64,000 nucleotides of DNA from Hydrogenothermus marinus (GCF_003688665.1 NZ_REFO01000010.1:310001-374000), one strand, 5' to 3'; numbered from the stretch's first letter, positions 27,889-31,563 are shown. The notes: a model not told the origin generated them from the letters alone. Numbers and translations: made by a program.

Positions 27889-28553
27889 ATATATTTATTC
27901 ATGGTTGGAGTTTTGATAAAACAATATGGAAAGATTTTTATAATTTAGAAAATTCTCTTTTTTTTAATTTGCCTTTTCATGGAGATTTTAAAGATTTTGA
28001 AGATAAAAATATTATAGAAAACTATATAGAGTATATAAAGGAAAAGATAAAAAAATCCTCTACTTTAATAGGTTGGTCCTTAGGGGCAACTATTTCTGTT
28101 TTATTTTATCTAAAATATCCTGAGAAAGTGAAAAAGCTTATATTAATTGGGTTTTCTCCAAAATTTAAAGATGAAAAACTTGGACATAATCCAAAAAATG
28201 TAAGGGCATTTATGATTTCATTAAAGAAGGATTTTAAAAACACAGTTTTTAATTTTAGAAAATCTTCTACTAACTGTTATTTTAAAAGTATTCCTTTGCC
28301 TGAGGAGAAAGGAAGTTATAATCTCTTAAATGAGTATATAAATTTAGATATTACTTCAGAAATTGAAAAAATAGATGTTCCTACTACTTTAATTCATGGA
28401 AAAAAAGATAAAATTATAAATCCACTGGCAAGTATATTTTCAAATCAGAAAATAAAAAATAGTAAATTAATTCAGATAAATTCTCATCATGCACCATTTT
28501 TAGAAGATAAGCAGATTATTCTAAATGAAATCTATCCTGATTTAAGTATATAA
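27885..28553 (+). CDS. BioH-like alpha/beta hydrolase
   Basis: 222 residues of the alpha/beta hydrolase fold. The oxyanion-hole region is IFIHGWSFDKTIW, the nucleophile elbow is GWSLG (Ser at about residue 68), the Asp lies in IHGKKDKIINP and the His in INSHHAPFLED. Size, the HGW opening and GWSLGA resemble BioH, which cleaves pimeloyl-ACP methyl ester. The tight overlap with bioW supports a biotin role, perhaps releasing pimelate for BioW; that coupling is inference. Its 3' end overlaps the converging regulator gene by 38 bp. Confidence 0.8.
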   Translation: MNIFIHGWSFDKTIWKDFYNLENSLFFNLPFHGDFKDFEDKNIIENYIEYIKEKIKKSSTLIGWSLGATISVLFYLKYPEKVKKLILIGFSPKFKDEKLGHNPKNVRAFMISLKKDFKNTVFNFRKSSTNCYFKSIPLPEEKGSYNLLNEYINLDITSEIEKIDVPTTLIHGKKDKIINPLASIFSNQKIKNSKLIQINSHHAPFLEDKQIILNEIYPDLSI

Positions 28554-29175
28554 ACTTTTTCTTTGTTTTGATTAGATTTTCTTTTTTTAATTTATTTATC
28601 AGTTTTGAAACAGTTTCTCTTGTTGACCCTATCATATCTGCTATATCTTGATGTGTAAGAAGAATATTAATTTTAATAAAATCTTCTTCTTTTTCTTTAA
28701 CCCCAAATTTAGAGGAAAGTCTTGATAAAATAGATATTAATCTTTCTTCTACAGATTTAAAAATAATATCTGAAAAATTTAACTCAATATGATACCTTTT
28801 TAAACCAAGATATTTTCTTATTTTTATATTTAAAGTTAAATCTTTTGTTATAAGATTTTCAAAAAATTTTTTGTTAATCATACACAAAACAACATCTGTT
28901 AAAGCTACTGCATACTCTTTTTCCAAATCTGTCAAACAACCAAAGATTTCCCCTTCTTTTAGAATATCTGTAATTAATCTTTTTCCATTATTTTCAATAT
29001 ATATTGCGACTTTACCATATTTTATCACATATATATAATCTCTATTTTCAGGAGTTGTAATTACAGTATTTTTTTTCATTTCTTTTAAAAAGGAGTTATC
29101 CTCTAAATCATTGATCATATTTTCAGGAAGATTTTTGAATATATCAAGCCTTTTTATAAACCATATCTTTTCCAT
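28516..29175 (-). CDS. Crp/Fnr-family transcriptional regulator
   Basis: 219 residues from the preferred ATG (MEKIWFIKRLDIF). An N-terminal cyclic-nucleotide-type beta-roll (VIKYGKVAIYI ... LKEGEIFGC) and dimer helix are followed by a winged helix, LTHQDIADMIGSTRETVSKL, whose STRETVS recognition helix is typical of Crp/Fnr proteins. It lacks the four-Cys cluster of FNR and shows no PBC signature for cAMP, so the signal is unknown. An in-frame ATG exists at 29214, but then the perfect palindrome at 29178-29193 would be coding; the shorter start leaves it as an operator three bases upstream. Divergent from the DoxX-RiPP operon, which it probably controls. Confidence 0.88.
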   Translation of the reverse strand: MEKIWFIKRLDIFKNLPENMINDLEDNSFLKEMKKNTVITTPENRDYIYVIKYGKVAIYIENNGKRLITDILKEGEIFGCLTDLEKEYAVALTDVVLCMINKKFFENLITKDLTLNIKIRKYLGLKRYHIELNFSDIIFKSVEERLISILSRLSSKFGVKEKEEDFIKINILLTHQDIADMIGSTRETVSKLINKLKKENLIKTKKKFIYLNQDRFHLE

Positions 29176-29177
29176 TT

Positions 29178-29193
29178 TGTAATCCAGATTACA
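29178..29193. promoter_or_regulatory. Crp/Fnr-type operator, perfect palindrome TGTAATC-CA-GATTACA
   Basis: Seven-base arms with a 2-bp centre form TGTA-N8-TACA, the half-site geometry of Crp/Fnr/NtcA regulators. It lies between the divergent Crp/Fnr gene and the doxX-RiPP operon. Its centre is about 41-42 bp upstream of the start expected from the plus-strand TATATT box, an activating position, and it covers the ribosome-site region of the regulator gene, a repressing position. Confidence 0.7.
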
Positions 29194-29214
29194 GTTTTTA
29201 TTTTTATTTTTCAT

Positions 29215-29225
29215 TATATTATACT
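29215..29225 (+). promoter_or_regulatory. -10 region of the doxX-RiPP operon
   Basis: TATATT (29215-29220) and an overlapping TATACT (29220-29225) lie 23-33 bp before the ATG at 29249, with no good -35 box, as expected for an activator-dependent promoter. The reverse strand here reads TATAAT (29223-29218), a candidate -10 for the regulator gene. Confidence 0.5.
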
Positions 29226-29248
29226 ATGACATTATGTAGGAGAAAATT

Positions 29249-29704
29249 ATGATTAAAGAAATATATAAAAAGTATGAAGAAATTTTAAATAAAAGTAGTG
29301 ATTTTTTCTTATTGGCTATTAGATTATACTGGGGATGGTTATTTTTTAGAGCTGGTTTTTGGAAATTTACCCATTATCCACAAGCAACTAAATTTTTTGA
29401 TTATTTAGGCTTACCATATCCAGAATATTTTGTAATTTTTATAGCAACTGTTGAAACAGTAGGTGGAATTTTATTGTTTTTTGGAATATTCTCCCGAATT
29501 ACAGCTTTAATCTTAACCTTTAATATGATTGGAGCATTTATAGTAGGACATAAAGATGCTCTTTTATCTATATTCTCAAAACCTGAAGATTTTTACATGG
29601 CACAGCCTTTAACTTTTTTAATTGCTTCATTAATAGTTTTATTTTTTGGAGCAGGTAAATTTTCTATTGACTATTTAATATTAAATAAGTATTTTAAAAA
29701 CTAA
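29249..29704 (+). CDS. DoxX-family membrane protein of the RiPP operon (BufD/HvfD-like)
   Basis: 151 residues with four membrane helices. AIRLYWGWLFFRAGFWKF near the N-terminus, FFDYLGLPYPEYF and ETVGGILLFFGIFSRITALIL are typical of DoxX proteins. DoxX proteins are a regular part of bufferin/HvfABCD operons, where their role (perhaps quinone-linked redox at the membrane) is not settled. TAGGAGAAAATT precedes the ATG. It is first in the operon, just downstream of the palindromic operator, and 20 bp before the precursor gene; in most described operons the DoxX gene comes last. Confidence 0.85.
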   Translation: MIKEIYKKYEEILNKSSDFFLLAIRLYWGWLFFRAGFWKFTHYPQATKFFDYLGLPYPEYFVIFIATVETVGGILLFFGIFSRITALILTFNMIGAFIVGHKDALLSIFSKPEDFYMAQPLTFLIASLIVLFFGAGKFSIDYLILNKYFKN

Positions 29705-29724
29705 TTATCGTAGGAGGTATTATT

Positions 29725-30060
29725 ATGAAGAAAGAAATAACAGCTATTTCAGCTGCAGTAGGAATGATTGCTTCAACTGCAATGGCAGATCAGCTTGTAA
29801 GCTACCAACAAGGTAAGGTATCAGATAGTAGATATTTGCTTGCATCTGCAGATGGTATGACTTGTGGAAAAGAGATGAAGGAAAAAATGAAAGAGTGTAA
29901 GAAAATGATGAAAGAGGCAAGTTACGGTTCTAAAATGAAAGAATGTAAAAAACTTCTAAAAGAAAAGAGTAAAGAAGGAAATGGTGGAGCAATGATGAAA
30001 AAAGGCACTAAAGAAAAAGCTAAGGAAATGGCTTGTGGCCAATGTGGAGCAATGAAATAA
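29725..30060 (+). CDS. Cys/Lys/Met-rich exported peptide, candidate MNIO-modified RiPP precursor
   Basis: 111 residues. A Sec signal peptide (MKKEITAISAAVGMIASTAMA, cut after Ala21) is followed by a linker and a core with five cysteines: Cys47 (DGMTCGKEM), Cys58 (MKECKKMM), Cys74 (MKECKKLL) and Cys104/Cys107 (ACGQCGAMK) at the C-terminus. LLASADGMTCG resembles the LAxxDGkCG start of HvfA-type proteins, but the usual dense EGKCG repeats are missing and the two MKECKK units are different. It is upstream of and overlaps a DUF692 oxidase and is followed by a DUF2063 protein, the enzyme pair that converts Cys to oxazolone/thioamide or thiooxazole groups. Copper or other metal sequestration in the periplasm is the likely purpose, by analogy. 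GTAGGAGG is a strong ribosome site. Confidence 0.8.
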   Translation: MKKEITAISAAVGMIASTAMADQLVSYQQGKVSDSRYLLASADGMTCGKEMKEKMKECKKMMKEASYGSKMKECKKLLKEKSKEGNGGAMMKKGTKEKAKEMACGQCGAMK

Positions 30061-30875
30061 TTAAAGGTGCAGGTCTTGGCCTTAGAACAGCTTTTATTGA
30101 AGAGATTTATGATTATAATTTAAAGCCAAACTGGTTTGAAGTTGCTCCTGAAAACTGGATAAAAAAAGGTGGTTATTTAAAAAAACTTTTTGAAAAAATA
30201 AGGCAAGATTTTCCATTTATATGTCATGGGCTTTCTCTTTCCATAGGAAGCCCTGACCCTATAAATTTTTCTTTTTTAAAAGAACTTAAAGATTTTTTAG
30301 ATTATTATGAAATAAAGCTTTACTCAGAGCATTTAAGCTTTTCATATTTTAAGGGTAGTAATACTTATGATCTTTTGCCACTTCCTTTTACAAAAGAAGT
30401 TGCAGACAATATTATAGAAAAGCTAAAAATAGTTCAAGATTTTTTAAATAGACAGATAGCTATAGAAAATGCATCTATATATTTAATATTAGAAAAAGAG
30501 ATGGAAGAGTATGAGTTTATCCAATATATAATTGAGAATGCAAACTGTAAGCTACTTCTTGATATTAATAATGTTTATGTAAATTCTGTTAATCATGGTT
30601 TTAATCCTTATGATTTTATAGATAAGATTAATCCAGAATGGGTTATGTATTATCATATAGCAGGCCATGATAGAATAGAAGAAAATTTAATAATAGATAC
30701 CCATGGACAAAATGTTATAGATGAAGTTTATGATCTTTTAAGATATACTCTTGAAACTATTGGAAATAAACCTGTATTACTTGAAAGAGATAATAATATT
30801 CCTCCTTATAAAGAGCTGTTAAAAGAGTATAAAAAAGTAAAAGATATTGTTGAAAATGAAAAAAAATTCGTTTGA
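30042..30875 (+). CDS. DUF692 multinuclear non-haem iron oxidase (MNIO; BufB/HvfB/MbnB-like)
   Basis: 277-residue TIM barrel of the MNIO family. It opens GAGLGLRTAFIEEI, and all metal-ligand blocks of MbnB/TglH-type enzymes are present: FICHGLSLSIGS, YSEHLSFS, AIENAS, LLLDINNVYVNSVNHGFNP, YYHIAGHD, DTHGQNV and a final LLERDNNIP. These hold two or three irons that oxidise peptide cysteines with O2. The start is ATG 30042 or TTG 30033, both inside the precursor gene (19-28 bp overlap), with no strong ribosome site of its own, so enzyme synthesis is probably coupled to precursor translation. The substrate should be the peptide encoded just upstream. Confidence 0.9.
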   Translation: MWSNEIIKGAGLGLRTAFIEEIYDYNLKPNWFEVAPENWIKKGGYLKKLFEKIRQDFPFICHGLSLSIGSPDPINFSFLKELKDFLDYYEIKLYSEHLSFSYFKGSNTYDLLPLPFTKEVADNIIEKLKIVQDFLNRQIAIENASIYLILEKEMEEYEFIQYIIENANCKLLLDINNVYVNSVNHGFNPYDFIDKINPEWVMYYHIAGHDRIEENLIIDTHGQNVIDEVYDLLRYTLETIGNKPVLLERDNNIPPYKELLKEYKKVKDIVENEKKFV

Positions 30876-31563
30876 GATTATAGAAAAGTTTTACAAATCT
30901 ATTATTTATGGAGAAAATCTATTAAATCTTCCAGAAAATAGACTTTCTATTTACCAAAGTTTAGTTTATAACAATATAGAAGATTCATGTGCCAAAGCTT
31001 TTCCTTTAACTAAAAAAATTTTAGAAGATAAATGGGAAAAGCTTATATCCGATTTCTTAAAAAATCATAAATTTAAGTCTCCTTATCTTTGGGAAGTTCC
31101 TAAGGAGTTTATTTCTTTTTTAAAAAATAAAGGAATTTTTGAGGAAAAATCCTTTTTATATGAGTTAATGCTTTATGAATGGTTAGAAATAGAGATTTTT
31201 AATGAAGATATACCATCTGTAAATAGAGAGTTTAATTGGTATGAAAAATATAATTTTTCAAAAACTTCCAAGCTACTGAATTTCAAGTATCCTATACATA
31301 AGATTTCAGAGATTGATATAAAAAAGATAGAAGATTTAAAAGCTGATTACTTTTTAATAATATTTCAAAATCCAGATACTTATGAAATAGAGTATTTAGA
31401 AATAACACCTTTTTTATATCAAATACTTGATAATATAAATTCAGAAAAACTTATAAATCAAGTAAAACAAGTTTGTAAAAGTTTTAATATTAATTATGAA
31501 GATATACTTCCTAAATTGGAAAATTTCTTTAAAATGCTTATAAAAAATAAAATTTTAATTTAA
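30856..31563 (+). CDS. DUF2063 RiPP partner protein (BufC/HvfC-like)
   Basis: 235 residues. RLSIYQSLVYNNIEDSCAKA then FPLTKKIL is the characteristic N-terminal helical block of DUF2063 (annotated putative DNA-binding domain), followed by SPYLWEVPKEFISFL. In characterised MNIO systems this protein binds the precursor and presents it to the oxidase, so the DNA-binding label is probably misleading. The ATG lies inside the MNIO gene (20-bp overlap), and in-frame TTGs at 30847 and 30850 are alternatives; no Shine-Dalgarno is evident, implying coupling. It closes the operon, followed by a strong hairpin. Confidence 0.85.
   Translation: MKKNSFEIIEKFYKSIIYGENLLNLPENRLSIYQSLVYNNIEDSCAKAFPLTKKILEDKWEKLISDFLKNHKFKSPYLWEVPKEFISFLKNKGIFEEKSFLYELMLYEWLEIEIFNEDIPSVNREFNWYEKYNFSKTSKLLNFKYPIHKISEIDIKKIEDLKADYFLIIFQNPDTYEIEYLEITPFLYQILDNINSEKLINQVKQVCKSFNINYEDILPKLENFFKMLIKNKILI

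Follow-up and report, generated by a model that had tools for sequence, protein, structure and literature searches.

A probable captophorin-type MNIO operon with a five-cysteine precursor and a divergent Crp/Fnr-family regulator in Hydrogenothermus marinus

Gene content of the locus

The window analysed here is a stretch of 64,000 nucleotides from Hydrogenothermus marinus (GCF_003688665.1, NZ_REFO01000010.1:310001-374000), in which positions 28516-31563 hold four plus-strand genes, in the order doxX, precursor, MNIO and DUF2063 partner, and a divergent gene for a Crp/Fnr-family regulator (Table 1). The genes flanking this system on both sides are biotin-type and acetyl-CoA-synthetase-like, as read by eye from their translations. 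The first-pass annotation had described an operon of overlapping reading frames for a DoxX membrane protein, a Sec-exported five-cysteine peptide, a complete MNIO and a DUF2063 protein; all four are present, and overlaps of 19 bp (precursor and MNIO) and 20 bp (MNIO and partner) connect the last three, whereas doxX is separated from the precursor gene by a gap of 20 bp. For the MNIO, the ATG at 30042 was judged a better start than the TTG at 30033 given in the ORF list. All five genes have pN/pS values of 0.14-0.31 in the comparison of the window with genome G005, indicating purifying selection, and the genome-neighbourhood survey that had been proposed as a check recovered the precursor-MNIO-partner order in eight genomes of the family. 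Because this order recurs and selection is purifying, the locus is not a product of chance.

Table 1. Features of the system in the window, with the Pfam-confirmed CxxCxxCC genes of second-group loci in the last row
Feature	Position	Strand	Basis or remark
Crp/Fnr-family regulator	28516..29175 (start ~29175, MEKIWF; ORF list reaches upstream to 29214)	-	PF13545 58 bits, PF00027 49 bits
Candidate operator TGTAATCCAGATTACA	29178..29193	.	perfect 7+7 palindrome, Crp-type spacing, TGTAA-N6-TTACA
doxX / HvfX-like membrane protein, 151 aa	29249..29704	+	PF07681 66.9 bits, cut-off 23.6
Precursor peptide, 111 aa, five Cys	29725..30060	+	no family model above cut-off
Signal peptide MKKEITAISAAVGMIASTAMA, residues 1-21	29725..29787	+	sequence reading; cleavage by eye
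Cys47, Cys-Gly site (GMTCG), predicted substrate	29863..29865	+	invariant 8/8
Cys58, KEC[K/R]-type, predicted unmodified	29896..29898	+	invariant 8/8
Cys74, KEC[K/R/Q]-type, predicted unmodified	29944..29946	+	invariant 8/8
Cys104 and Cys107 in EMACGQCG, Cys-Gly, predicted substrates	30034..30045	+	invariant 8/8
MNIO (DUF692), HvfB-like, 277 aa	30042..30875	+	PF05114 326.4 bits, 1.6e-97
DUF2063 partner (PME1 / HvfC-like), 235 aa	30856..31563	+	PF09836 54 bits, cut-off 27.2
CxxCxxCC genes	L055:3182-3805, L058:2604-3287, L060:2633-3307		PF03692

The DUF692, DUF2063 and DoxX assignments all passed the profile check, the MNIO matching positions 1-262 of the 263 of PF05114 (cut-off 25 bits). Scores against the NCBIfam equivalogs lie under the cut-offs throughout: 344.6 bits for HvfB (NF003818, cut-off 360) and 287.9 for BufB (NF050167, cut-off 310) with the MNIO, 135.5 for HvfC (NF050145, cut-off 142) with the partner, and 56.6 for HvfX (NF050144, cut-off 80) with DoxX. 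Structural relatives are the HvfB-like PDB entry 3bww for the MNIO (1.7e-63; 45% identity over the aligned part) and 3dee for the partner (4e-11). Among the features that mark captophorin clusters (PMC13097082), the locus has a PF05114 MNIO gene and a Cys-rich precursor directly 5′ of it; a DUF2063 partner with an RRE was judged present as well, PF09836 passing and the NGO1945_C/RRE part, at 24.7 bits, falling slightly short of its cut-off of 27. The placement of doxX at the head of the operon, which had been taken as a trait of the system, is real in the window but is not general: in the ten loci examined first, doxX is first in three, absent in five and 3′ of the precursor gene in two.

All tested iron-site and catalytic residues are present in the window MNIO (residue table), among them the equivalents of HvfB N175, D242 and H244 (site 3), which are required for activity (PMC13419390), and of D249, the catalytic base of FonB (PMC13097082). 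Arg15, Arg16 and Phe250 (FonB numbering) mark the Lys-Cys class of enzymes (PMC13097082). Of these selectivity positions, the window MNIO keeps Arg15, has Thr for Arg16 and has Asn (Asn251) for Phe250, which places it outside the Lys-Cys class; nor does it carry the Asp at the Phe250 site that distinguishes the Cys-Lys class, this site being Asn in 17/17 aligned Aquificota enzymes, among which the Arg16 site is variable. The reference set behaved according to the published rule, with Phe at the Phe250 site in Lys-Cys enzymes, Asp in Buf2-type enzymes and mixed residues in DUF2282-type enzymes. Asn at this site is not unique to Aquificota, as it also occurs in an Escherichia albertii enzyme and one DUF2282-type enzyme. 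Because Arg16 and Phe250 of the Lys-Cys class are absent, site selectivity is not transferable with confidence.

Sequence identity of the window MNIO is 45% with a Lys-Cys type from Acinetobacter and 32-39% with ten other plasmid-borne MNIOs. In the tree, the 17 Aquificota enzymes group together with moderate support (81/84) on the 3bww/Acinetobacter side, which is split from the BufB types at 100/100; the E. albertii row is a long branch. Judged from the tree, the MNIOs are an Aquificota clade on the HvfB/FonB side. The initial designation as a bufferin/Hvf-type system thus stands for the MNIO/DUF2063 class and has to be narrowed to the HvfB/FonB side, not BufB, for an enzyme that lies under both equivalog cut-offs.

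The precursor family and its distribution

MNIO genes were found in 17 of 136 Aquificota genomes, eight in the family of the window and the others all within a single genus of a second family. The precursor family occurs in exactly the eight MNIO-bearing genomes of the window's family (8/136), always directly 5′ of the MNIO gene and with 59-74% identity (n=8, window included), and a sequence search found it in none of the 119 MNIO-free Aquificota genomes. The co-occurrence gives a Fisher value of 1e-8, which is indicative only because related genomes are not independent. A contig search returned at least four named precursor matches among the matches listed, all from Hydrogenothermaceae MAGs, in agreement with the Aquificota-like host first proposed; tblastn of the precursor against plasmids gave no match. 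The profile search found a single MNIO in the window genome.

The precursor consists of a Sec-type N-terminus that ends in an A-M-A cleavage motif (by eye), a conserved GKVSDSR linker, a Cys/Met/Lys-rich region and the C-terminal KAKEMACGQCGAMK. Common to all eight precursors in the alignment are a signal peptide, the invariant linker GKVS-[D/E]-[S/T]-R, a region resembling CGKEMKEKMKEC and, at the C-terminus, K-x-KEM-x-CG-x-CG. The invariant cysteines of the family (47, 58, 74, 104 and 107; n=8) are exactly the five of the window, and the relatives have six to eight cysteines, the extra ones all at Cys-Gly sites. In the window precursor, which has the lowest Cys count of its family, Tyr and Gly replace, within 29920-29990, two Cys-Gly cysteines that are kept in relatives.

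Two kinds of cysteine can be distinguished. Cys-Gly accounts for 37 of the 53 cysteines in the eight precursors (24/37 with Glu at -3), with three to six such sites per precursor, mostly of a degenerate EGKCG form (E-x-x-C-G); Cys47 of the window has Gly, not Glu, at -3. In the other 16 of the 53, exactly two in each precursor, the next residue is K, R or Q. Exact EGKCG is found at one of the 53 cysteines and nowhere in the window precursor. The second Aquificota group and a second locus in genome G006 have shorter precursors with only Cys-Gly or Cys-Ala sites (EGKCA, EATCA, EMTCG), and the second group has a related C-terminal KEM-[A/T]-C...CGG motif. Because the sites are mostly E-x-x-C-G and the shorter kin are of the Cys-Gly/Cys-Ala kind, the precursors look like degenerate EGKCG-type relatives to which two cysteines would have been added in Hydrogenothermaceae. 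The earlier remark that the peptide resembles neither BufA1 nor HvfA is correct in that none of the eight members matches the DUF2282 profile of Buf1 bufferin precursors and the window peptide has no EGKCG repeats, but the degenerate E-x-x-C-G is retained.

No Pfam or NCBIfam model recognises any of the eight members above cut-off, and weak zinc-ribbon and AKNA matches were dismissed as chance or composition. A CxxxxC motif is absent from the window precursor, as judged by the motif itself and not by the published profile (PMC12452194). With no match to a Pfam or NCBIfam model, the precursor thus represents a family that appears to be undescribed so far. Hundreds of unsorted small Cys-containing precursors 5′ of MNIO genes have already been reported (PMC12452194), and the window family may be one of them. 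AlphaFold prediction from the eight sequences gave a mean pLDDT of 47, unusable for a fold search, with two weak helices (49-64 and 70-83).

Several neighbouring observations concern the same genomes. The second MNIO locus of G006 (L012:2545-4261) has a divergently oriented precursor gene of the Cys-Gly/Cys-Ala kind followed by doxX, its MNIO branches beside the Hydrogenothermaceae clade, and an exact TGTAA-N6-TTACA operator belongs to this locus too. Next to the precursor gene or doxX, the second Aquificota group has a CxxCxxCC gene (PF03692, putative zinc- or iron-chelating); besides the Pfam-confirmed cases, it was read by eye in loci L053, L054, L057 and L059, and it may be an extra component of these operons. 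Two copper P-type ATPase genes pass the cut-off in the window genome, which counts in favour of the pathway proposed below; one is adjoined by an HMA domain on another contig (G000:C1:1185-3319), and the other is at C10:240784-242514.

The Crp/Fnr regulator and its candidate operator

The divergent regulator gene, which the first-pass annotation had assigned to the operon, is real, and its orthologs (128-488 bits) occur in six Aquificota genomes, all six with an MNIO; MNIO-free genomes give at most 73 bits. At one alignment column a cysteine is present in all six orthologs and in none of 24 other Crp proteins from the phylum. Iron-sulfur sensing of the FNR type is unlikely, as no N-terminal Cys cluster was seen by eye.

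Exact TGTAA-N6-TTACA lies 5′ of the operon in 4/4 family loci whose genome has the regulator and in 0/5 of those without it (Fisher p 0.008), and dinucleotide shuffles reached it in 0-2 of 2000 cases per locus. Four loci of the second family have near-matches (9 of 10); two of these belong to genomes in which no ortholog was found, so the regulator-operator link is weaker there. The window genome contains 14 exact sites. Of these, 13 are inside ORFs, on which ground a wider regulon was rejected; only the one at the operon is between genes, suggesting a local switch dedicated to the operon. Immediately next to this operator is the start codon of the regulator gene, an arrangement consistent with autoregulation. 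A dedicated Crp/Fnr regulator with a single-operon operator is a new part of such a system and appears to be undescribed.

Proposed maturation pathway and its alternatives

MNIO and partner systems form a class termed captophorins that comprises bufferins, oxazolin/HvfA and fontiphorin, and characterised members convert Cys to a copper-binding 5-thiooxazole (PMC13097082). The present system, taken together with the chemistry, Cu(I) binding and regulation set out below, is probably a captophorin-type RiPP operon of an MNIO and a DUF2063 partner; its gene content, families, orthology, intact active site, Cys pattern and regulator-operator association are read from sequence.

Of the closest known systems, oxazolin/HvfABCX of Haemophilus influenzae and fontiphorin FonABC share the Sec-exported Cys-rich precursor, the HvfB-clade MNIO, the HvfC-type partner, DoxX and Cys-Gly sites mostly with Glu at -3. 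The window differs from them in the absence of EGKCG repeats, two added KEC[K/R]-type cysteines, an MNIO with Asn for Phe and without Arg16, the leading position of doxX and the dedicated regulator. Bufferins Buf1 (DUF2282) and Buf2 (6/12 Cys) resemble it in the precursor-MNIO-partner order, signal peptide, DoxX and probable periplasmic metal binding, whereas the window precursor has no DUF2282 match, the operon has no sigma factor/NrsF, and the window MNIO scores lower against BufB and branches off the BufB types. The one CxxxxC-type locus compared, which lies next to an MBL-fold gene on Escherichia albertii plasmid p1RM10507 (L102), encodes an MNIO that likewise has Asn for Phe250 and is 39% identical to the window MNIO; the window precursor has neither the CxxxxC motif nor an adjoining MBL-fold gene.

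Maturation probably starts when the partner binds the N-terminal part of the precursor, where the signal peptide and possibly also the linker GKVSDSR would be recognised. Using O2 and a diiron centre of mixed valence, the MNIO would then convert the cysteines in E-x-x-C-G contexts (Cys47, Cys104 and Cys107) to 5-thiooxazole, and Cys58 and Cys74 would most likely stay thiols, perhaps forming the disulfide of a short helical hairpin or serving as extra metal ligands. The modified peptide would be exported by Sec and bind a soft metal in the periplasm, most likely Cu(I). The regulator, by binding the single operator that separates its gene from the operon, would control both, and it would sense a signal, perhaps through its one private Cys. 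Recruitment via the signal peptide region, diiron/O2 chemistry, Sec export and periplasmic copper follow the model from HvfBC, FonBC and BufBC (PMC13419390, PMC13097082, PMC12452194). We infer the chemistry, the reacting cysteines, the disulfide, copper binding, the inducer and the direction of regulation, copper as the function being assumed by homology.

That the Cys-Gly sites react is the simplest reading, because FonBC favours cysteines that precede a small residue and did not accept the charged residues tested there (PMC13097082), and because both Aquificota groups share the Asn enzyme although only one has KEC[K/R]. Sparing of two cysteines has a precedent in Buf1, in which a disulfide links the first Cys to the last and the central Cys are modified (PMC12452194). 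The two weak helices would each carry one spared Cys; the confidence is too low for reliance, and the hairpin idea is weak because AlphaFold gave no confident fold. It is also conceivable, if rather unlikely, that all five cysteines are modified (-20 Da), Asn at the Phe250 site broadening specificity to Cys-Gly and Cys-Lys contexts. The resemblance of KEC[K/R] to Cys-Lys (Buf2) substrates, the invariance of all five cysteines and the loss of Arg16, as in Cys-Lys and DUF2282 enzymes (PMC13097082), speak for such broad modification, but the second Aquificota group combines the same Asn with only Cys-Gly/Cys-Ala sites, Cys-Lys enzymes have Asp at this position, and exactly two non-Gly cysteines per precursor suggest a pair.

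The first-pass annotation anticipated a loss of 2-4 H per Cys; the product expected for the DUF2063-partner class is now 5-thiooxazole, -4 Da per Cys, and not oxazolone/thioamide (PMC13097082, PMC13419390). A different chemistry of the latter kind is improbable here: the diversity of MNIOs and an active-site signature, Asn251, not characterised in the literature consulted speak for it, but partner type and clade are those of 5-thiooxazole makers, all tested members of the HvfB/FonB clade make this product (PMC13097082), and the iron-site and catalytic-base residues are the same. With regard to function, a role with other metals or in other stresses is conceivable for some members (PMC12452194). 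The invariant Cys of the regulator, the lack of a copper-sensor family beside the operon and a DoxX homologue tied to oxidative or sulfur stress (PMC12452194) would suit a peptide for another metal or for redox or oxygen stress, to which DoxX and Crp/Fnr point; such a role is unlikely, as characterised 5-thiooxazole peptides generally bind Cu (PMC13097082) and the precursor is rich in Met and Cys. That the peptide is an ordinary metallothionein-like one which stays unmodified, with the MNIO acting elsewhere, would fit the Cys/Met/Lys-rich composition and the weak zinc-ribbon matches, yet it is very improbable, because in 8/8 genomes the peptide strictly accompanies the MNIO and its gene adjoins or overlaps the MNIO gene, and because the window genome has a single MNIO.

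The preferred reading, with modified Cys-Gly sites and a copper-binding product, can be extended tentatively: the enzymes with Asn at the Phe/Asp site may be a third specificity class of 5-thiooxazole-forming MNIO, acting on a two-kind precursor whose KEC[K/R] pair serves as thiol or disulfide, under a single-operon Crp/Fnr switch that senses via one private Cys. This combination is possible and falls well short of probable.

The class, the enzyme type and the chemistry are already known, and the system is not the first thermophilic member, since fontiphorin comes from Fontimonas thermophila. The novelty lies in a precursor family with two kinds of Cys, in the group of Asn enzymes, and in a Crp/Fnr regulator dedicated to the operon, together with its operator; a literature search pairing MNIO with Aquific* found no paper. 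The thiooxazole-metallophore class is now placed in Aquificota, with a precursor family missed by current models. Since one short peptide combines two Cys contexts, the site selectivity of MNIOs can be tested on it directly, the Asn active site can naturally be set against the Phe and Asp classes already published, and the regulator-operator pair is a route to the inducing signal. Heat-stable enzymes from these organisms may also aid structural work on the MNIO-partner-precursor complex.
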